From positions 1 through 24,945 of the IMG/VR virus record IMGVR_UViG_3300009071_000066: 24,945 bases of DNA; one strand, written 5' to 3'. Under the pieces are notes generated by a model. It made no database searches and was not told the DNA's origin. It saw only the letters and a list, made by a program, of their open reading frames with translations. Position 1 is the first letter of the stretch. Each line of letters begins with the position of its first letter. This document shows positions 18,017 through 23,877 of the stretch, piece by piece. Both the position numbers and the translations under genes were made by a program. This DNA comes from a virus.

Positions 18017-19358
18017 AGAAAAAGAAATTAGTTACATGCAGCAGGTCACAGATCGTCTTAAGACGATCAACGAAGAAGGCGCTGAAGACCGAAATGCGAC
18101 CAAAGGCAAGGGCATACAAAGCTCTTTGCTTCGCGATCAGATAAAGATACTAGAAGTAATCGCGAATAGTGTCGCCATGCTCAATAATAACTTCGAAGAG
18201 TTTATGCAGAACCAAGCCCTTGCTAGTTTAAAAGGATTAGACCCAGAAGATAAAGGTGGCGTACAGGGCAAGACGTCGGGTGCCAAAAATTCGGGCGATA
18301 AAGATGATGCTGGCTTTCTCTTTGATGGTATTGTAGCGAGCTTCATAGCGTTCAAAGCTTCAATGATGTTATTTGGTACAAGGCTATTGAACTTCATAAA
18401 GCGTATTGCTCTTCCTGTGACTGCAGTTATTGCGCTTATTAAGGGGTTTATGGAAGATTTTGAATCAACAGAAGGTACGTTTGGAGAAAAGGTAGTCGCG
18501 GGACTTGGCGGTGCTATCCAGAAACTGTTTAAGTGGTTAATTGCAGTACCTAGTCAGTTCGTCGTAGATTTGGCTGCTTGGTTGGCTCGGAAATTTGGAG
18601 CAAATGAAGCAGCAGCATATCTAGAGAAAGTCGATGTTGCTAAAATGTGGGAAGATCTTCTTAAAGGAATTGGTGAATTCCTGAAACCGATGACCGATAT
18701 GATCGCAAACGGGATTGACTGGTTTATGGGACCGGAAAGCGAGGAAGCTAAAGAAATGGTTTCTACTGTGATAGATACCGTTTTTGAAAAAATAAAATCA
18801 ATCGCGAAAGGTTTAGCGGACCTCTTTCATTTCTTCACGACCGGCGAAGACATTGGTATAGTTACAGAAATACAAGAAATGTACCAAGGAATCGTAGATT
18901 GGCTTTCTACATTGCCAGACAAAATGATGGCCCCGATCATAAAAATACAAGAAATGTACCAAGGAATCGTAGATTGGTTTTCTGAATTGCCGTCCAAGCT
19001 TTTTAATGGTCTTGGCGACCTAACCAAAAAGGGGTTATCAGCGCTTGGGTTTGGATCAGACTCTTCAGAAGAGTCTGCAGGAGACGATGATTATGATCCA
19101 AAGACAGTCATCGATTATGGCGATCCTACGCGATCAGGAAGGGTAACTGCCGCAGAAGCGCGTAGAGCAGAGTTAACAGGAGAATTAACGGAGGCGGAAA
19201 AGAATGCCTTTAAAGGGCATTCTCAAACTGCTAATGTAAACATTGCGCCGCAGTCAAATAACACTAATGTTAACAACAGCACAACAAACGTTACAGCAAG
19301 CAGTGGTCCCGTAAGGGACCCCAACCCGTTAAAAAATCGAAGCAGAGAAACGTTTTAA
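18009..19358 (+). CDS. Probable tail tape measure protein
   Basis: 449 residues from GTG 18009, with AAGGA 9 bases upstream. The protein is mostly helical: a charged N-terminus, hydrophobic segments at about 103-147 (FDGIVASFIAFKASMMLFGT, IALPVTAVIALIKGF), long amphipathic helices to about 345, then an acidic and Asn/Thr-rich tail (NVNIAPQSNNTNVNNSTTNV). This profile, and the position right after a frameshifting chaperone-type gene, fit a tape measure protein (T4 gp29, 590 residues). A 25-residue unit is repeated in tandem (IQEMYQGIVDW at 288-298 and 313-323). Identity is inferred from context and composition. A hub protein such as gp28 or gp29-associated is the alternative. The stop overlaps the convergent gp32 stop. 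Confidence 0.58.
   Translation: MAEEKEISYMQQVTDRLKTINEEGAEDRNATKGKGIQSSLLRDQIKILEVIANSVAMLNNNFEEFMQNQALASLKGLDPEDKGGVQGKTSGAKNSGDKDDAGFLFDGIVASFIAFKASMMLFGTRLLNFIKRIALPVTAVIALIKGFMEDFESTEGTFGEKVVAGLGGAIQKLFKWLIAVPSQFVVDLAAWLARKFGANEAAAYLEKVDVAKMWEDLLKGIGEFLKPMTDMIANGIDWFMGPESEEAKEMVSTVIDTVFEKIKSIAKGLADLFHFFTTGEDIGIVTEIQEMYQGIVDWLSTLPDKMMAPIIKIQEMYQGIVDWFSELPSKLFNGLGDLTKKGLSALGFGSDSSEESAGDDDYDPKTVIDYGDPTRSGRVTAAEARRAELTGELTEAEKNAFKGHSQTANVNIAPQSNNTNVNNSTTNVTASSGPVRDPNPLKNRSRETF
18051..18068. repeat. Perfect 18-bp palindrome
   Basis: GATCGTCTTAAGACGATC reads the same on both strands. As RNA it would fold into a 7-bp stem with a TTAA loop, starting 42 bases after the tape measure start codon. 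It is inside coding sequence. A regulatory or protein-binding role is not shown. Confidence 0.5.
18868..18977 (+). repeat. Tandem duplication: 35-bp perfect repeat, 75-bp period
   Basis: Bases 18868-18902 are repeated exactly at 18943-18977. The sequences after each copy are also similar (TTTCTACATTGCC and TTTCTGAATTGCC). The period is 75 bases, exactly 25 codons, so the tape measure reading frame is kept. Confidence 0.85.
19057..19077. repeat. Perfect inverted repeat, hairpin in tape measure 3' region
   Basis: Arms CAGACTCTTC and GAAGAGTCTG are exact complements around one central A. A hairpin of about 8 bp with a 5-base loop is expected. There is no T run on either side. Confidence 0.45.
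19198..19223 (-). terminator. Possible intrinsic terminator for gp32 transcripts
   Basis: On the minus strand, AGAATGCC pairs with GGCATTCT (8 bp, extendable by T-G and T-A pairs over a short loop), and the stem runs straight into TTTT (19201-19198). It lies about 130 bases past the gp32 stop, antisense to the end of the convergent gene. On the plus strand no T run follows, so it would act in one direction only. Confidence 0.42.
19305..19320. repeat. Hairpin with GTAA tetraloop near convergent gene ends
   Basis: GGTCCC and GGGACC form a perfect 6-bp stem closed by GTAA (a GNRA-type loop in the plus RNA). It is inside the last codons of the tape measure gene, 35 bases from the gp32 stop. It could protect or stall mRNA ends. 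No T run follows. Confidence 0.4.
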
Positions 19359-20245
19359 TCTTCTGCAGCTAACTTTGCAAAGTATGACATAGTGTCATCT
19401 TCGTCTTCGGCGGTCACCGTAATCTCCGGTTCAGAAGCCGTCTTAGGAGCTGGCGCTGCAGCTGTCTCGGTTACTGAAGTAAAGTTTCGTTCAGCAGCAG
19501 CAGTAACACCAAGGACCATATTCAATCGCTCTTGTAGCTCGTTATAGCTCTTGTAGTTGTCTGGATCAGAATACTCGTTAAGATCATGCAGCTTCGAATA
19601 GATCTGTTCTAAGACGTCATCGTCGTCCGAAAGAGGTTTCGAAGAAGCAAACTCAGACTTATCGTAGTTTCGGTATCCCTCAACATTACGAATCTTCAAT
19701 TTGAAAGAAGCACCTTCCCAGAAGTCAAATGGGTTGACAGGATCTTCGTCAGCAAACTGTGGTTGCATAACATCCATAATCTTGTCAAAGATCTTCTTAC
19801 CAAAGACAAACAGTTTTACCTGTCCTTCAGTCTCAGGATTAGCAGAATCGCTCTCGACAAGAACATTTGCAACATAGTGCAATCGACGCTTACGTTCACG
19901 AACAATCTCTTTGTCTCGCTCGTTACCAGAGTTCCAGAGCTTGCTGTTAGCTTCTGATACAGGATCGTTCTGACCAATAGAGGTCAAAGACTTCTCAATG
20001 TACCATTGCCCAGTTGGACCTTTGAAACCATGATCCCAGTAACGAACCCACGGGAGGTCAGTACCTTCGGCAGCAGGAAGAAACCTTAATACCGCATAGC
20101 CATTGCCGGCTTTGTCAACTGTCGGCTTCCAGATACGTTCGTCCACATAGGACTTCTTCTCTGGACCAGCGTTTTGGCCAGAAGCAGCATTAACTAGTTT
20201 CGTGATTGAATTTGCGCGGTTGCGCTTAAGAGTGTCAAAAGACAT
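19355..20245 (-). CDS. gp32: Single-stranded DNA-binding protein gp32
   Basis: 296 residues; T4 gp32 has 301. It has an N-terminal basic segment (LKRNRANS, the cooperativity 'LAST'-like region), core 'VLRFLPAAEGTDLPWVRYWD', 'RRLHYVANVLV', 'PETEGQVKLFVFGKKIFDKI' and 'DFWEGASFKLKIRNVEGYRN' (T4: [40 protein letters not shown]), and an acidic C-terminal tail ending DDTMSYFAKLAAED. gp32 coats single-stranded DNA in replication, recombination and repair and recruits partners through the tail. The zinc-binding Cys of T4 (C77, C87, C90) appear replaced: the region reads EKSLTSIGQNDPVSEANS, with S86, D94 and S97. GAGGT lies 6 bases before the ATG. The stop interlocks with the convergent tape measure stop. 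Confidence 0.93.
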   Translation of the reverse strand: MSFDTLKRNRANSITKLVNAASGQNAGPEKKSYVDERIWKPTVDKAGNGYAVLRFLPAAEGTDLPWVRYWDHGFKGPTGQWYIEKSLTSIGQNDPVSEANSKLWNSGNERDKEIVRERKRRLHYVANVLVESDSANPETEGQVKLFVFGKKIFDKIMDVMQPQFADEDPVNPFDFWEGASFKLKIRNVEGYRNYDKSEFASSKPLSDDDDVLEQIYSKLHDLNEYSDPDNYKSYNELQERLNMVLGVTAAAERNFTSVTETAAAPAPKTASEPEITVTAEDEDDTMSYFAKLAAED

Positions 20246-20853: not shown

Positions 20854-21129
20854 CTATAGAATAATCCCGCTTATCGACTTCGTATATTCGTTCGCGACTT
20901 CTTTAGCAGTGGGCACCAAAAGAATAACTCCTGATTTCTGAAAGGTTACTTCACCAATGCTGGGCATACCCGTCATGGCTACGGTGGGCATAAACTGAAT
21001 GGTTTCGTTAACAGGAGAAACGATATGTGGATCTCCTATGACAAAAGTGTCATCAGTTTCTTTCTTAAATTTACCTACGTACTCTGCGCCTGTTACAGCT
21101 ACAACGGTTACTATATCATTAATTTTCAT
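20854..21129 (-). CDS. Small beta-barrel protein, possibly Sm-like, unknown function
   Basis: 91 residues from ATG 21129, chosen because AGGAG lies 6 bases upstream; a further in-frame upstream start lacks this. The sequence is strand-rich: MKINDIVTVVAVTGAEYVGK, FKKETDDTFVIGDPHIV, then IQFMPTVAMTG and VTFQKSGVILLVP, with a short C-terminal helix (AKEVANEYTKSISG). The order 'DIVTVVAVTGAEYVGKFKKE' then 'FVIGDPHIV' resembles the first strands of an Sm/LSm or SH3-like barrel. That is a weak, pattern-only suggestion. The first 11 bases overlap the end of the upstream dehydrogenase gene. Confidence 0.72.
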   Translation of the reverse strand: MKINDIVTVVAVTGAEYVGKFKKETDDTFVIGDPHIVSPVNETIQFMPTVAMTGMPSIGEVTFQKSGVILLVPTAKEVANEYTKSISGIIL

Positions 21130-21898
21130 TTCTATACTCCTCATTACAATCTACGACAGCGTCTAATAGTGGTGAACCAACAGCAATATACCTCAATGCC
21201 GCGATATCCTTTGGTAAACAATGGCCCCCATATCCAAATTTACCATCCGGCCCAGGAACCTGAGTGTGAGACTTTCCAATTCTAGGGTCAACAGTAATAG
21301 CATCTACCATTTGGTCAAACCCTTCGAATCCAATGTCTTTATAGATTTTATACATCTCGTTAAAGAAGGTCACCTTAGTTGCTAAAAAGGTATTCTCAAC
21401 ATACTTAGCAAAGGATGCCTGTTGCAAAGAACAATACTTAACATCGCACAAACTTGGTAATACTGGCCGTAACAGTTCATCCCAAAATCGACAATCGTCT
21501 CCACCATAGATTGCATATGTTTGAAACTCAAATTCTTCTAATGTATTTCGATTGACGTTCGAACTACCCAAAAACTCAGGCGAGTAAGTATAACTACCGT
21601 CACGAACCCCCGCTTCCCAATCTATCCAAACAGGATCGACAGCTGATTTAATTAAATACTTCACACTACCGTACTTATTAAACACTTCTTCGACATGATC
21701 AGTATTACAAGAACCGTTTTCGCGCATAGGCGTGGCAACGCAAACGACAACAGCATCAACGGGAGATAGATTAGGATTCGGTATATAGTTGTGTCCCTTT
21801 GCAGGATCATCTACAAAAACCTGCAAATCGTCTCTCTTTTGCAAGACATATTCAACTGCCTGCCCAACGGCACCATAACCAGCAACAACAATTTTCAC
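21119..21898 (-). CDS. Short nucleotide-sugar dehydrogenase (UDP-glucose/GDP-mannose 6-dehydrogenase family)
   Basis: 259 residues from GTG 21898, chosen because it overlaps the previous stop as GTGA and has GGGA upstream; the protein then starts MKIVVAGYGAVG. Features are the Rossmann GxGxxG (G7-Y-G-A-V-G12), VATPMRENGSCNTDHV (55-69), YSPEFLGSS (105-113), AKYVENTFLATKVTFFNE (164-181, with K165 and N169), and YGGHCLPKD (223-231) with catalytic C227. The family oxidises the sugar C6 alcohol to the uronic acid in two NAD-dependent steps. Usual members have about 390-450 residues. This one ends at CNEEYR, just after the dimerisation helix, and lacks the C-terminal sugar-nucleotide-binding domain. 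All catalytic motifs seen are intact. A role in modifying host surface sugars or phage glycans is inferred. Confidence 0.82.
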   Translation of the reverse strand: MKIVVAGYGAVGQAVEYVLQKRDDLQVFVDDPAKGHNYIPNPNLSPVDAVVVCVATPMRENGSCNTDHVEEVFNKYGSVKYLIKSAVDPVWIDWEAGVRDGSYTYSPEFLGSSNVNRNTLEEFEFQTYAIYGGDDCRFWDELLRPVLPSLCDVKYCSLQQASFAKYVENTFLATKVTFFNEMYKIYKDIGFEGFDQMVDAITVDPRIGKSHTQVPGPDGKFGYGGHCLPKDIAALRYIAVGSPLLDAVVDCNEEYRNEN

Positions 21899-22209
21899 GA
21901 TAATATTCCCAAACAAAAATTTTCGGCGACATCTTCAGCATAACTAAGCGACTTGTCAAAGCACTCAACTGTTCTAATATACCTTGATTGTTCAAACAAT
22001 TCAACAGAATACCCTACCACACTCTTCTGTACAATAGCTTCTTTCTTGCCGTTGTCTGACCAATGTTTAGATATTACTTCATTGATGTTGACCTGACTCT
22101 TATGCTCATGGTATTTCATATTTTTTCCCCCAAAAATAAGATCCCATTGCGCATCAAATGCATTTTGCTTAACGCTCAGAGGTCTTGGTTTGCTTCCTTT
22201 ACCGTTCAA
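21895..22209 (-). CDS. KGSKPRPLSV-motif phage protein, unknown function
   Basis: 104 residues. The start is TTG 22209, overlapping the upstream TGA (TTGA), with AGGAG 10 bases before it. Residues 3-27 (GKGSKPRPLSVKQNAFDAQW, then DLIFG) carry a motif I recall as nearly the whole of small proteins in marine T4-like phages. Here it is joined to a second part of about 74 residues (from MKYHEHKSQVNINEVISKHW) that I do not recognise. An internal ATG starts that second part, with GGGGGA 7 bases upstream, so a separate shorter product is possible. The end overlaps the dehydrogenase start by 4 bases. Confidence 0.68.
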   Translation of the reverse strand: MNGKGSKPRPLSVKQNAFDAQWDLIFGGKNMKYHEHKSQVNINEVISKHWSDNGKKEAIVQKSVVGYSVELFEQSRYIRTVECFDKSLSYAEDVAENFCLGILS

Positions 22210-22811
22210 TGCACGGGCTCCTGAAATAAAGTTTTCTCAATTAGGTTATATTCTACTTGCTCTCTTTGAATCCACCAATCTGGTGGGCTCCTTCGTTTCC
22301 ACTTTGCCAGATTACGCTTGGCTTCCCAATAATAATTTCTGTAAGATTCTACAGAATCGTTTTTGACAATGCATGTGGAAAAGTTTCCCACTGCAGGAGT
22401 AACAGGCGTTAAGCCAATGTCTGTAGGAATATTGTTAGGAACCCAGAACAGAAAACTATGCAACTTGCCCGCGCCATGTTCCTTGTCATATCGATACGTA
22501 TACTCTTTAAGCAAAAAAGACCACATTGTGTATAGCCACTGGTAGTTATCTTTGCTTTGACGTAGCCAGATATTAGAAGGATGGTTAATATGACAAGCAA
22601 GGTAGAGGTTCATATTGAAAAGAGGATTCTCTAGGTAATACCTTTTAATTTTTCTACCTGTTGCAGACTTTCCATACCAAGGGGTTCCGTCGAGAACACG
22701 ATGCGCCGTAGACATTAGTTGAGCATATTCGGTGCACATTTTAACAACATGAGAATCATTATGACTTTCTGCGCATTTTTTAGGATCTTGATCAAGATCA
22801 AATATGTTCAT
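22206..22811 (-). CDS. Conserved T4-like phage protein with HVVKM motif, unknown function
   Basis: 201 residues. The N-terminus reads MNIFDLDQDPKKCAESHNDS, then HVVKMCTEYAQLMSTAHRVL. Later come 'LACHINHPSNIWLRQSKDNY', 'WLYTMWSFLLKEYTYRYDKE' and 'SYRNYYWEAKRNLAKWKRRS', then PPDWW. I recognise this as a conserved hypothetical in T4-like marine phages and some bacteria. Its many invariant His, Trp, Tyr and Asp residues suggest an enzyme or nucleic-acid-binding protein, but I cannot name one. GAGGAG lies just before the ATG, which overlaps the upstream stop by 4 bases (ATGA). The gene sits between thyX-linked and sugar-dehydrogenase genes in a coupled set. Confidence 0.78.
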   Translation of the reverse strand: MNIFDLDQDPKKCAESHNDSHVVKMCTEYAQLMSTAHRVLDGTPWYGKSATGRKIKRYYLENPLFNMNLYLACHINHPSNIWLRQSKDNYQWLYTMWSFLLKEYTYRYDKEHGAGKLHSFLFWVPNNIPTDIGLTPVTPAVGNFSTCIVKNDSVESYRNYYWEAKRNLAKWKRRSPPDWWIQREQVEYNLIEKTLFQEPVH

Positions 22812-23002
22812 CGCAACTCCTCATTAAGACTATCAGCGATAGTCTGTTTCATTTCTTTGTCTGTAGATTTATCTACAAGCTGCACATCAGTAGCTTTAAA
22901 CTTATACGTTTTCCAATACATCTTTTGTTTACAACGGAGTTTATATTCTACCTCATCGTAATTAAAAACCCAACCATAAACACCTTCTGGATAATCAGTC
23001 AT
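22808..23002 (-). CDS. Small unknown protein downstream of thyX
   Basis: 64 residues, overlapping the end of thyX by 8 bases and the next gene by 4. It reads MTDYPEGVYGWVFNYDEVEY, then KLRCKQKMYWKTYKFKATDV, with a charged C-terminal helix. I do not recognise it. The tight overlaps on both sides and the normal amino-acid make-up support a real gene. No ribosome site is obvious, so translation probably depends on thyX. Confidence 0.6.
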   Translation of the reverse strand: MTDYPEGVYGWVFNYDEVEYKLRCKQKMYWKTYKFKATDVQLVDKSTDKEMKQTIADSLNEELR

Positions 23003-23684
23003 CAGTAGGTTCTAGAGCAGAAACTACATCAGGAAAATGAACTCCAATTATCTCCCAACATTTATCTGCAATTTCCATATGTTCTGCTTGCGTTCCGTGT
23101 CCTCGGCGTAACTCACAGTAGTGAACCCAAGAGCGTAAGGTACCTGACATATACAAGGTTGTTTCTGTCAGGCCTTCTGGAAGCAGAGCACGCGCCTGTT
23201 CTTTAGCGATACCGGTATTTAGCGCCATCTCATAATAGTCCTTAGCGACTCGAGAGACTTCTCCTTGCATTTCAGAAAACACTTCTTGGGCTTTACGTTG
23301 AATTTCTGGATTTGTATCTTTCTGGCTCAACTGTCGATTAGTCGGATGTTGTTTTCTCGCTTCACGATTAGTTACAAACGACTCGCTTACTGCATAACGT
23401 TGAGAGAATTCTTGAAAAGAGAACGAACGATGCCGAAGAATCTGTCTGCTGATATCTCGAGTCGTAACAATCTCCATCGTAATCGAAACCATTTCGAAAG
23501 GCGACCAGTGGTTCTCTTTAATTAAATACTTTAACAGTTTCTTTGCTGTCTTAGTATTATTTTGGTTAGCCGGATTGCTAACCCGAGCAGCATATGCTAC
23601 TAACTCTGCAGCGGTATGGCATCCTGTAGACGCACTAGGGGTTGTCATACCTACTAAACTTACTTCACTATCTCTCTTCAGCAT
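22995..23684 (-). CDS. thyX: Flavin-dependent thymidylate synthase ThyX
   Basis: 229 residues from ATG 23684. GGAG stands 6 bases upstream; the adjacent ATG 23687 is only 3 bases from it, and a GTG at 23717 would overlap the previous gene deeply. ThyX makes dTMP from dUMP using FAD, NADPH and methylene-tetrahydrofolate. The signature RHRx7S is present (RHRSFSFQEFS, 84-94), followed by QRY. Also seen are 'HWSPFEMVSITMEIVTTRDI' before it and 'ARALLPEGLTETTLYMSGTL', then 'RSWVHYCELR' (dUMP- and FAD-binding C-terminal motifs). The length is normal for the family. It supplies dTMP for phage DNA synthesis; marine T4-like phages often carry ThyX rather than ThyA. It is part of the minus-strand early-type gene string. 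Confidence 0.95.
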   Translation of the reverse strand: MLKRDSEVSLVGMTTPSASTGCHTAAELVAYAARVSNPANQNNTKTAKKLLKYLIKENHWSPFEMVSITMEIVTTRDISRQILRHRSFSFQEFSQRYAVSESFVTNREARKQHPTNRQLSQKDTNPEIQRKAQEVFSEMQGEVSRVAKDYYEMALNTGIAKEQARALLPEGLTETTLYMSGTLRSWVHYCELRRGHGTQAEHMEIADKCWEIIGVHFPDVVSALEPTDD

Positions 23685-23877
23685 CATATGCTCCTTCCAT
23701 GTAAGTTCCAGGTACACTGTAATATGCTCTTACTACATGAATCGAACGTATCAGCGCGTCATCGTGCCAATCTTTGGGCGCTTTATCGTCCAAACAATAT
23801 TCGATCACGTCATCAAGTTCTTGACGCATGAACTCGTCAATTACTTCATCACGAAAAACTTCTCTTATCTTAATCAC
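23668..23877 (-). CDS. Small conserved-looking protein upstream of thyX
   Basis: 69 residues from GTG 23877, with AAGGA 7 bases upstream. It reads 'EVIDEFMRQELDDVIEYCLD', then 'DALIRSIHVVRAYYSVPGTY' and MEGAYDAEER, acidic and helical. I think similar small proteins precede metabolic genes in marine T4-like phages but cannot give a function. The last 17 bases overlap the start of thyX and contain its ribosome site, so the two are coupled. Confidence 0.65.
   Translation of the reverse strand: MIKIREVFRDEVIDEFMRQELDDVIEYCLDDKAPKDWHDDALIRSIHVVRAYYSVPGTYMEGAYDAEER

Follow-up and report, generated by a model that had tools for sequence, protein, structure and literature searches.

The window, by which we mean the whole 24,945-nucleotide stretch analysed (positions 1 to 24,945 of IMG/VR record IMGVR_UViG_3300009071_000066), comes from a marine virus of bacteria, and this virus is the carrier of a two-domain dehydrogenase gene (Table 1). 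The gene runs on the minus strand, none having been named in the preliminary description. An in-frame TTG at 21916 is an alternative start for the gene, and a scan of the window found no RNA families or tRNAs. For the product of the conserved neighbour at 22206–22811 (minus strand), Pfam weakly suggests a pyrimidine-dimer glycosylase.

Table 1. Features at the dehydrogenase locus, in window coordinates.
Feature	Position	Strand	Remarks
Predicted two-domain NDP-sugar dehydrogenase CDS	21119..21898	minus	259 residues and a stop codon; starts with GTG at 21898
Rossmann GxGxxG, residues 7–12 (G7-x-G9-x-x-G12)	21863..21880	minus	Tyr10 of the family is Ala in the window protein
K165...N169, equivalents of S. 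pyogenes UGDH catalytic Lys204/Asn208	21392..21406	minus	From alignment; roles according to PMC4794789
Active-site loop, R206 to residue 223, with invariant His211	21230..21283	minus	Exceeds that of full-length enzymes by about 5 residues
GGHCLPKD (224–231), with catalytic Cys227 and Asp231	21206..21229	minus	
Last helix (243–257) and protein end	21128..21172	minus	Full-length enzymes continue into the C-terminal domain; from model and overlay
Upstream neighbour, 104 aa, conserved (cluster c3)	21895..22209	minus	Function unassigned; overlaps gene start
Downstream neighbour, 96 aa from first ATG, phrog_527	20854..21144	minus	Function unassigned; overlaps gene end
Conserved neighbour (cluster c2), 201 aa, phrog_624 "DNA binding protein"	22206..22811	minus	
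Conserved neighbour (cluster c1), ThyX-type thymidylate synthase	22995..23717	minus	Named by eye
Conserved neighbour (cluster c6), gp32-type single-strand DNA-binding protein	19355..20245	minus	Named by eye

In Pfam, the window protein matches the central domain PF00984 (E 3.3e-18, 66 bits, cut-off 25.4) and, weakly and below the cut-off of 27, the NAD-binding domain PF03721 (E 0.02, 14.9 bits), with the GxGxxG kept and the structural overlay running from residue 1. The C-terminal domain PF03720 gave no Pfam match, so the domain is indeed missing, as the preliminary description had it. PHROG 9148, "UDP-glucose dehydrogenase," matches residues 45–244 (E 2.4e-28), the match stopping at position 279 of a profile 382 long, and the whole-protein threshold of TIGR03026 (NCBIfam) is not reached (95.9 bits, cut-off 189.8).

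An AlphaFold model computed from 69 aligned short forms has a mean pLDDT of 95.1 and a pTM of 0.90; a model from a 28-row alignment left the active-site loop uncertain (pLDDT 83.5), and the 69 rows resolved it (block pLDDT 91–95). With VIA-align, 246 of the 259 residues overlay on residues 1–290 of the Campylobacter UGDH Cj1441 (7kws; Z 24.3, rmsd 2.0 Å) and 245 on residues 1–295 of the S. pyogenes UGDH (Z 23.5, rmsd 2.2 Å). As modelled, the window protein is thus predicted to be the first two domains of a UGDH, closed off as a unit. The length of 259 residues given in the preliminary description stands, but the chain does not end right after the dimerisation helix, which occupies residues 158–188 in mid-protein; it ends after the helix at 243–257, at the boundary of the central and C-terminal domains.

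The Rossmann motif, the Lys/Asn helix and the GGHCLPKD motif that had been reported from the sequence are all present (G7-x-G9-x-x-G12, K165...N169 and residues 224–231). Eighteen residues are described as invariant across 229 enzymes of the family, Lys320 of the C-terminal domain included (PMC4794789). Mapped by eye from alignments, 15 of the 18 are found in the window protein: the equivalents of the three Rossmann glycines, Thr83, Ser117, Pro140, Glu141, Lys204, Asn208, Asn219, Gly257, Gly258, Cys260, Asp264, and Asn287. Absent are Thr118 (Ala86), Glu201 (Ser162), and Lys320, which lies in the missing domain; Tyr10 and Glu145 are also absent. The equivalents of the catalytic Lys204, Asn208, Cys260, and Asp264, namely K165, N169, C227, and D231, occur in 69 of 69 diverse short forms, in which P107, E108, H211, G224, G225, P229, and K230 are likewise invariant. 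The cross-subunit Arg (Arg244 in S. pyogenes and Arg260 in human UGDH, according to PMC4794789 and PMC3184952) is retained in 60 of the 69, which fits a dimer. On present evidence the window protein would behave like a UGDH, but without some defining features of the classical family: since it lacks the C-terminal domain and three of the 18 invariant residues and falls short of the TIGR03026 cut-off, we class it with a two-domain variant rather than with the classical enzymes.

The short length is conserved. We defined the two-domain variant by an end less than 60 residues after the GGxC catalytic motif and by a longer loop with a His at Arg+5, described below; the window protein has such a loop and ends 28 residues after the motif, and all 57 loci of the first IMG/VR search (one of them, L055, with its 5′ end cut by the contig) end 25–34 residues after it, two of the 57 being 100% identical to the window protein. 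In nine comparisons with the window gene, pN was 0.13–0.21 and pS 0.68–0.85, with synonymous sites mostly saturated; the gene is under purifying selection. A frameshift or truncation is ruled out by the 57 short relatives together with a pN far below pS. The suggestion of a genuine minimal form in the preliminary description therefore holds, and it also survives the test which that description had set for itself, as none of the 57 close relatives has a full C-terminal domain. Judged from sequence, the short form is unlikely to be a broken gene and is probably a functional version of the enzyme that has received little study.

The loop in front of the catalytic motif has a His at Arg+5 and usually also the stretch VPGPDG. 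In 57 of 57 loci of the first viral search the Arg stands 18 and the His 13 residues before the GG. More widely, the Arg-to-GG spacing is 18 in most short rows and 13–14 in 11 of the 12 rows with tails of 100–180 residues, the twelfth giving none. The search patterns for the wider sets contained HTQVPGPD and GGHC stretches and so biased these sets toward the loop; the 57 loci were selected by other patterns. In a GGHC-only subset of 60 genome loci, 26 of 38 short rows carry the His and none of the 22 longer rows does, and beyond these 26 it lies one residue outside the tested segment in the short rows L123, L126, L129, and L131. The loop is not universal among short forms, the exceptions being found in Patescibacteria, in haloarchaea, in L144, in Jayden (a different loop), and in CP220 (no such His), so it does not accompany every loss of the C-terminal domain. 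Where it is present, we infer that it could replace contacts made by that domain.

Short forms are widespread. A wider viral search with an alignment query returned at least 587 stretches, and we took the best 80; 75 of these have new locus ids, several re-fetching contigs of the first search with shorter flanks, and 74 of these 75 have short tails (25–53 residues), the remaining one being without the motif. A search of genome contigs gave 84 loci, and among the 80 taken from these there are 57 short forms, 9 with 60–120 residues after the motif, 3 with 165–180 (the full length of a C-terminal domain), 10 with tails of about 305 residues, and one without the motif. According to the record titles, the hosts include Bacteroidota, Pseudomonadota, Verrucomicrobiota, Patescibacteria, and haloarchaea; many of these loci come from MAGs, and phage DNA may account for some of the contigs (L094 shares 74% identity with the window protein). 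Eighteen genomes with the short form were compared: 14 also have a PF00984 frame of at least 400 aa, G021, G029, and G030 have the short frame alone, and in G025 the second frame measures 345 aa. No match fell in an intact frame of 150–380 aa in 60 further Bacteroidota genomes, where the only traces were fragments of 137 and 142 aa, so the short form is common in phages and rare in cells.

A tblastn search of annotated phages gave 89 records, all at 60% identity or less, with Microbacterium (56) and Campylobacter (14) phages in the lead. The members inspected from these two groups are short (Jayden, 261 aa; CP220, 256 aa), as are the BFVD entries of Microbacterium phage Fireman (262) and Campylobacter phage F379 (256). 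Longer forms of 381–442 aa are found in SP-15, LIS04, QdP_Psa3, Kuja, HTVC008M, S-SSM7, Sf-FS3, Yong-DA, and Bellamy. Databases already name such phage proteins UDP-glucose dehydrogenase, and the form is, as described above, widespread in phages and present in bacteria and archaea too, so its description as new needs qualifying. We found no account of the two-domain form in the literature searched (subscription papers and preprints lying outside its scope).

Three of the ten loci with tails of about 305 residues were scanned in Pfam, and in all three (L158:4944-6617, L160:4896-6629, and L163:247-1914, of Patescibacteria type) a SAM-dependent methyltransferase forms one protein with the short dehydrogenase; the other seven have the same tail length. 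A further fusion may be represented by A0A6J5TB28 in BFVD, a 788-residue uncultured Caudovirales protein that matches the model.

In a tree of 71 rows, the window protein and 19 other short rows from phages and bacteria group at 99/99. A single clade for all short forms was considered and is unsupported: three changes are needed for the 53 short rows, and L144 sits inside the full-length rows with starred support. The C-terminal domain was thus lost more than once, or regained; the branches of Jayden, CP220, and a TviB-like row are long. For the window's branch the short form appears, on the tree, to be an old lineage, with at least one separate change elsewhere.

In the phage relatives the gene lies, by names given by eye, between ThyX and gp33/gp32 in 14–15 of 18 locus sets, near-copies included and set lengths differing. 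A PHROGs scan of 83 neighbouring ORFs from 14 other viral loci (of 113 ORFs in 15 loci) gave DNA polymerase families with five members and, among others, nucleotide-sugar epimerase with three, and helicase and clamp loader with two each; with the polymerase families in the lead, the gene often travels with replication genes. A 155 kb T4-like phage has a 404-residue isocitrate lyase-like ORF, named by eye, near its ThyX-like gene (L027:6011-7225, plus strand), and a viral contig (L245:2893-3924) and Campylobacter phage CP220 (L068:2748-3542) have radical SAM genes in the vicinity of the short dehydrogenase.

Sugar genes lie about 4–15 kb upstream in the three relatives inspected (G001, G002, and G006), a region beyond the window, which ends short of the place where the relatives carry them. 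They include family-25 glycosyltransferases in several copies and one of family 8, a GDP-mannose 4,6-dehydratase with a mannose-6-phosphate-isomerase-type cupin in G002, and HAD–nucleotidyltransferase fusions in G001 and G006. Among 15 virus records, PF01370 is found in eight, GDP-mannose 4,6-dehydratase among them, and NTP_transferase PF00483 in three; family-2 glycosyltransferases (PF00535) are above cut-off in none of the 15. In one phage record, three family-25 glycosyltransferase-like genes (cluster c7) stand in a row upstream of the dehydrogenase (L010:2152-4177), and L084 has further copies of such genes.

Of 132 viral loci, counted with near-copies, 8 have an SDR epimerase abutting the gene, and in C48C1 the short gene comes after a "nucleotide-sugar epimerase." In 7 of the 57 short genome loci (L113, L116, L118, L119, L124, L125, and L127) an epimerase directly follows the short gene, with a gap of 0 to an overlap of 107; these epimerases are at least 75% identical to that of L125, and L120, with the two genes 12 bases apart, has one at 46% identity. 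The best PDB matches of the L113 epimerase are 5u4q (E 5e-126) and 6zl6 (1e-37), both of which we take to be relatives of UDP-glucuronate 4-epimerase; 5u4q was deposited as a dTDP-glucose 4,6-dehydratase. At the site where UDP-glucuronate decarboxylases have a Glu, according to PMC7984243, the L113 epimerase has Ser, as mapped by eye. The epimerase beside the bacterial short gene is probably of the UDP-glucuronate 4-epimerase type. Four loci from marine bacterial MAGs or single cells (L098, L114, L115, and L128) have another arrangement: the short dehydrogenase, directly after it a methionine adenosyltransferase, then an adenosylhomocysteinase-like gene, the last of these named by eye.

Our preferred reading, held with slightly better than even confidence, sets these computed observations in the frame of a dimeric, NAD+-dependent, two-domain NDP-hexose 6-dehydrogenase: the Lys/Asn/Cys/Asp chemistry would oxidise C6 of a nucleotide-activated hexose, the substrate most likely being UDP-glucose and the product UDP-glucuronate, the longer active-site loop with its invariant His would partly take over the nucleotide contacts of the lost C-terminal domain, and the product would most likely feed phage-encoded glycosylation of the host surface, the virion, or DNA. 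The probable epimerase adjoining bacterial short forms and the sugar context in phages make UDP-glucose the likeliest substrate, with GDP-mannose as its main rival; for the window protein UDP-glucose is carried over by homology only, because the epimerase loci belong to another branch (of GGKC type, with the Arg replaced). Also weighing against the preferred reading are the absence of three of the 18 invariant residues and of Tyr10 and Glu145, the low TIGR03026 score, the end of the window short of the sugar-gene region, and the lack of PF00535 glycosyltransferases above cut-off. More tentatively, one may picture an old and widespread lineage that lives without the nucleotide-binding domain regarded as necessary, the His loop having taken over binding, whose phage copies, amid replication genes, may supply a uronic or derived sugar for the modification of DNA or virion. 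Arabinosylated DNA is described in the T4-like phage RB69 in PMC6024577, the main text of which does not contain the word dehydrogenase.

The same fold and chemistry could serve another substrate, as the preliminary description suggested, be it GDP-mannose, an N-acetylhexosamine nucleotide, or a nucleotide-free sugar, which we regard as possible if rather unlikely. The protein has lost a domain that assists nucleotide binding, the GDP-mannose pathway genes of phage relatives noted above (the 4,6-dehydratase and the cupin) fit a substrate other than UDP-glucose and so count against the preferred reading, the best phmmer match by E-value is the GDP-mannose dehydrogenase 1mfz, and two-domain dehydrogenases of the 3-hydroxyisobutyrate type overlay at Z of about 17. 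Structurally, however, the closest enzymes are UDP-glucose dehydrogenases (Z 21–24, against 17.8 for 1mfz), the cross-subunit Arg and the active-site glycines are retained, and it is a probable UDP-glucuronate 4-epimerase that adjoins the bacterial short forms.

It is improbable that the enzyme performs a partial reaction, stopping at the 6-aldehyde or passing an enzyme thioester to another acceptor. Thr118 and Tyr10, to which PMC4794789 assigns the handling of water, are lost, and across the 69 short forms the Thr118 site is Ala in 24 and Tyr10 is kept in only 6; yet the Thr is retained in the other 45, Cys and Asp are invariant, and Tyr10 is also missing in some full-length phage enzymes, such as those of SP-15 and LIS04. 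The preliminary description envisaged pairing with a host protein. A phage or host partner supplying the C-terminal domain is very improbable: although classical enzymes need that domain, with its Lys320 and Arg327 (PMC4794789), a separate PF03720 gene was found at E ≤ 1 in none of 15 virus records (the window and those of 14 relatives, some perhaps fragments), the same search being positive in 14 of 14 control genomes, and short forms occur in unrelated hosts, some of them fused to a methyltransferase instead. Decay or mis-sequencing, to which the loss of three otherwise invariant residues might point, is hardly credible with 57 of 57 relatives at the same length, pN far below pS, and an invariant catalytic set.

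If the preferred reading of a UDP-glucose dehydrogenase is right, a conserved lineage that does without Lys320 and the C-terminal domain would reveal what the synthesis of uronic-acid nucleotides truly requires; it would also provide glycan work with an enzyme of 260 residues and indicate that many marine phages have a sugar step not yet described. The label "UDP-glucose dehydrogenase" in phages spans two architectures.

With the three-domain UGDHs (Cj1441, 7kws; S. pyogenes, 1dli) the window protein shares the NAD-binding and central domains, the catalytic Lys, Asn, Cys, and Asp, and the cross-subunit Arg. It differs from them in that the C-terminal domain is missing and Lys320 and Arg327 are lost with it, in the longer His loop, and in the replacement of Thr118, Tyr10, Glu201, and Glu145. 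The 3-hydroxyisobutyrate and tartronate semialdehyde dehydrogenases, which overlay on the model at the Z of about 17 given above, are also NAD-dependent and of similar size (about 290 aa), but they have no GGxCxPKD motif and a different chemistry. Gene 146 of phage SP-15, proposed to make UDP-glucuronate for a sugar on the phage DNA (PMC5977210), is likewise a phage UDP-glucose dehydrogenase, but of 436 aa and three domains. Closest in architecture are the short proteins of Jayden (gp85, 261 aa), CP220 (CPT_0019, 256 aa), and C48C1 (319 aa), which also consist of two domains and stop early after the motif; they are at most 33% identical to the window protein, those of Jayden and CP220 are without the VPGPDG loop, and that of C48C1 has a longer tail.
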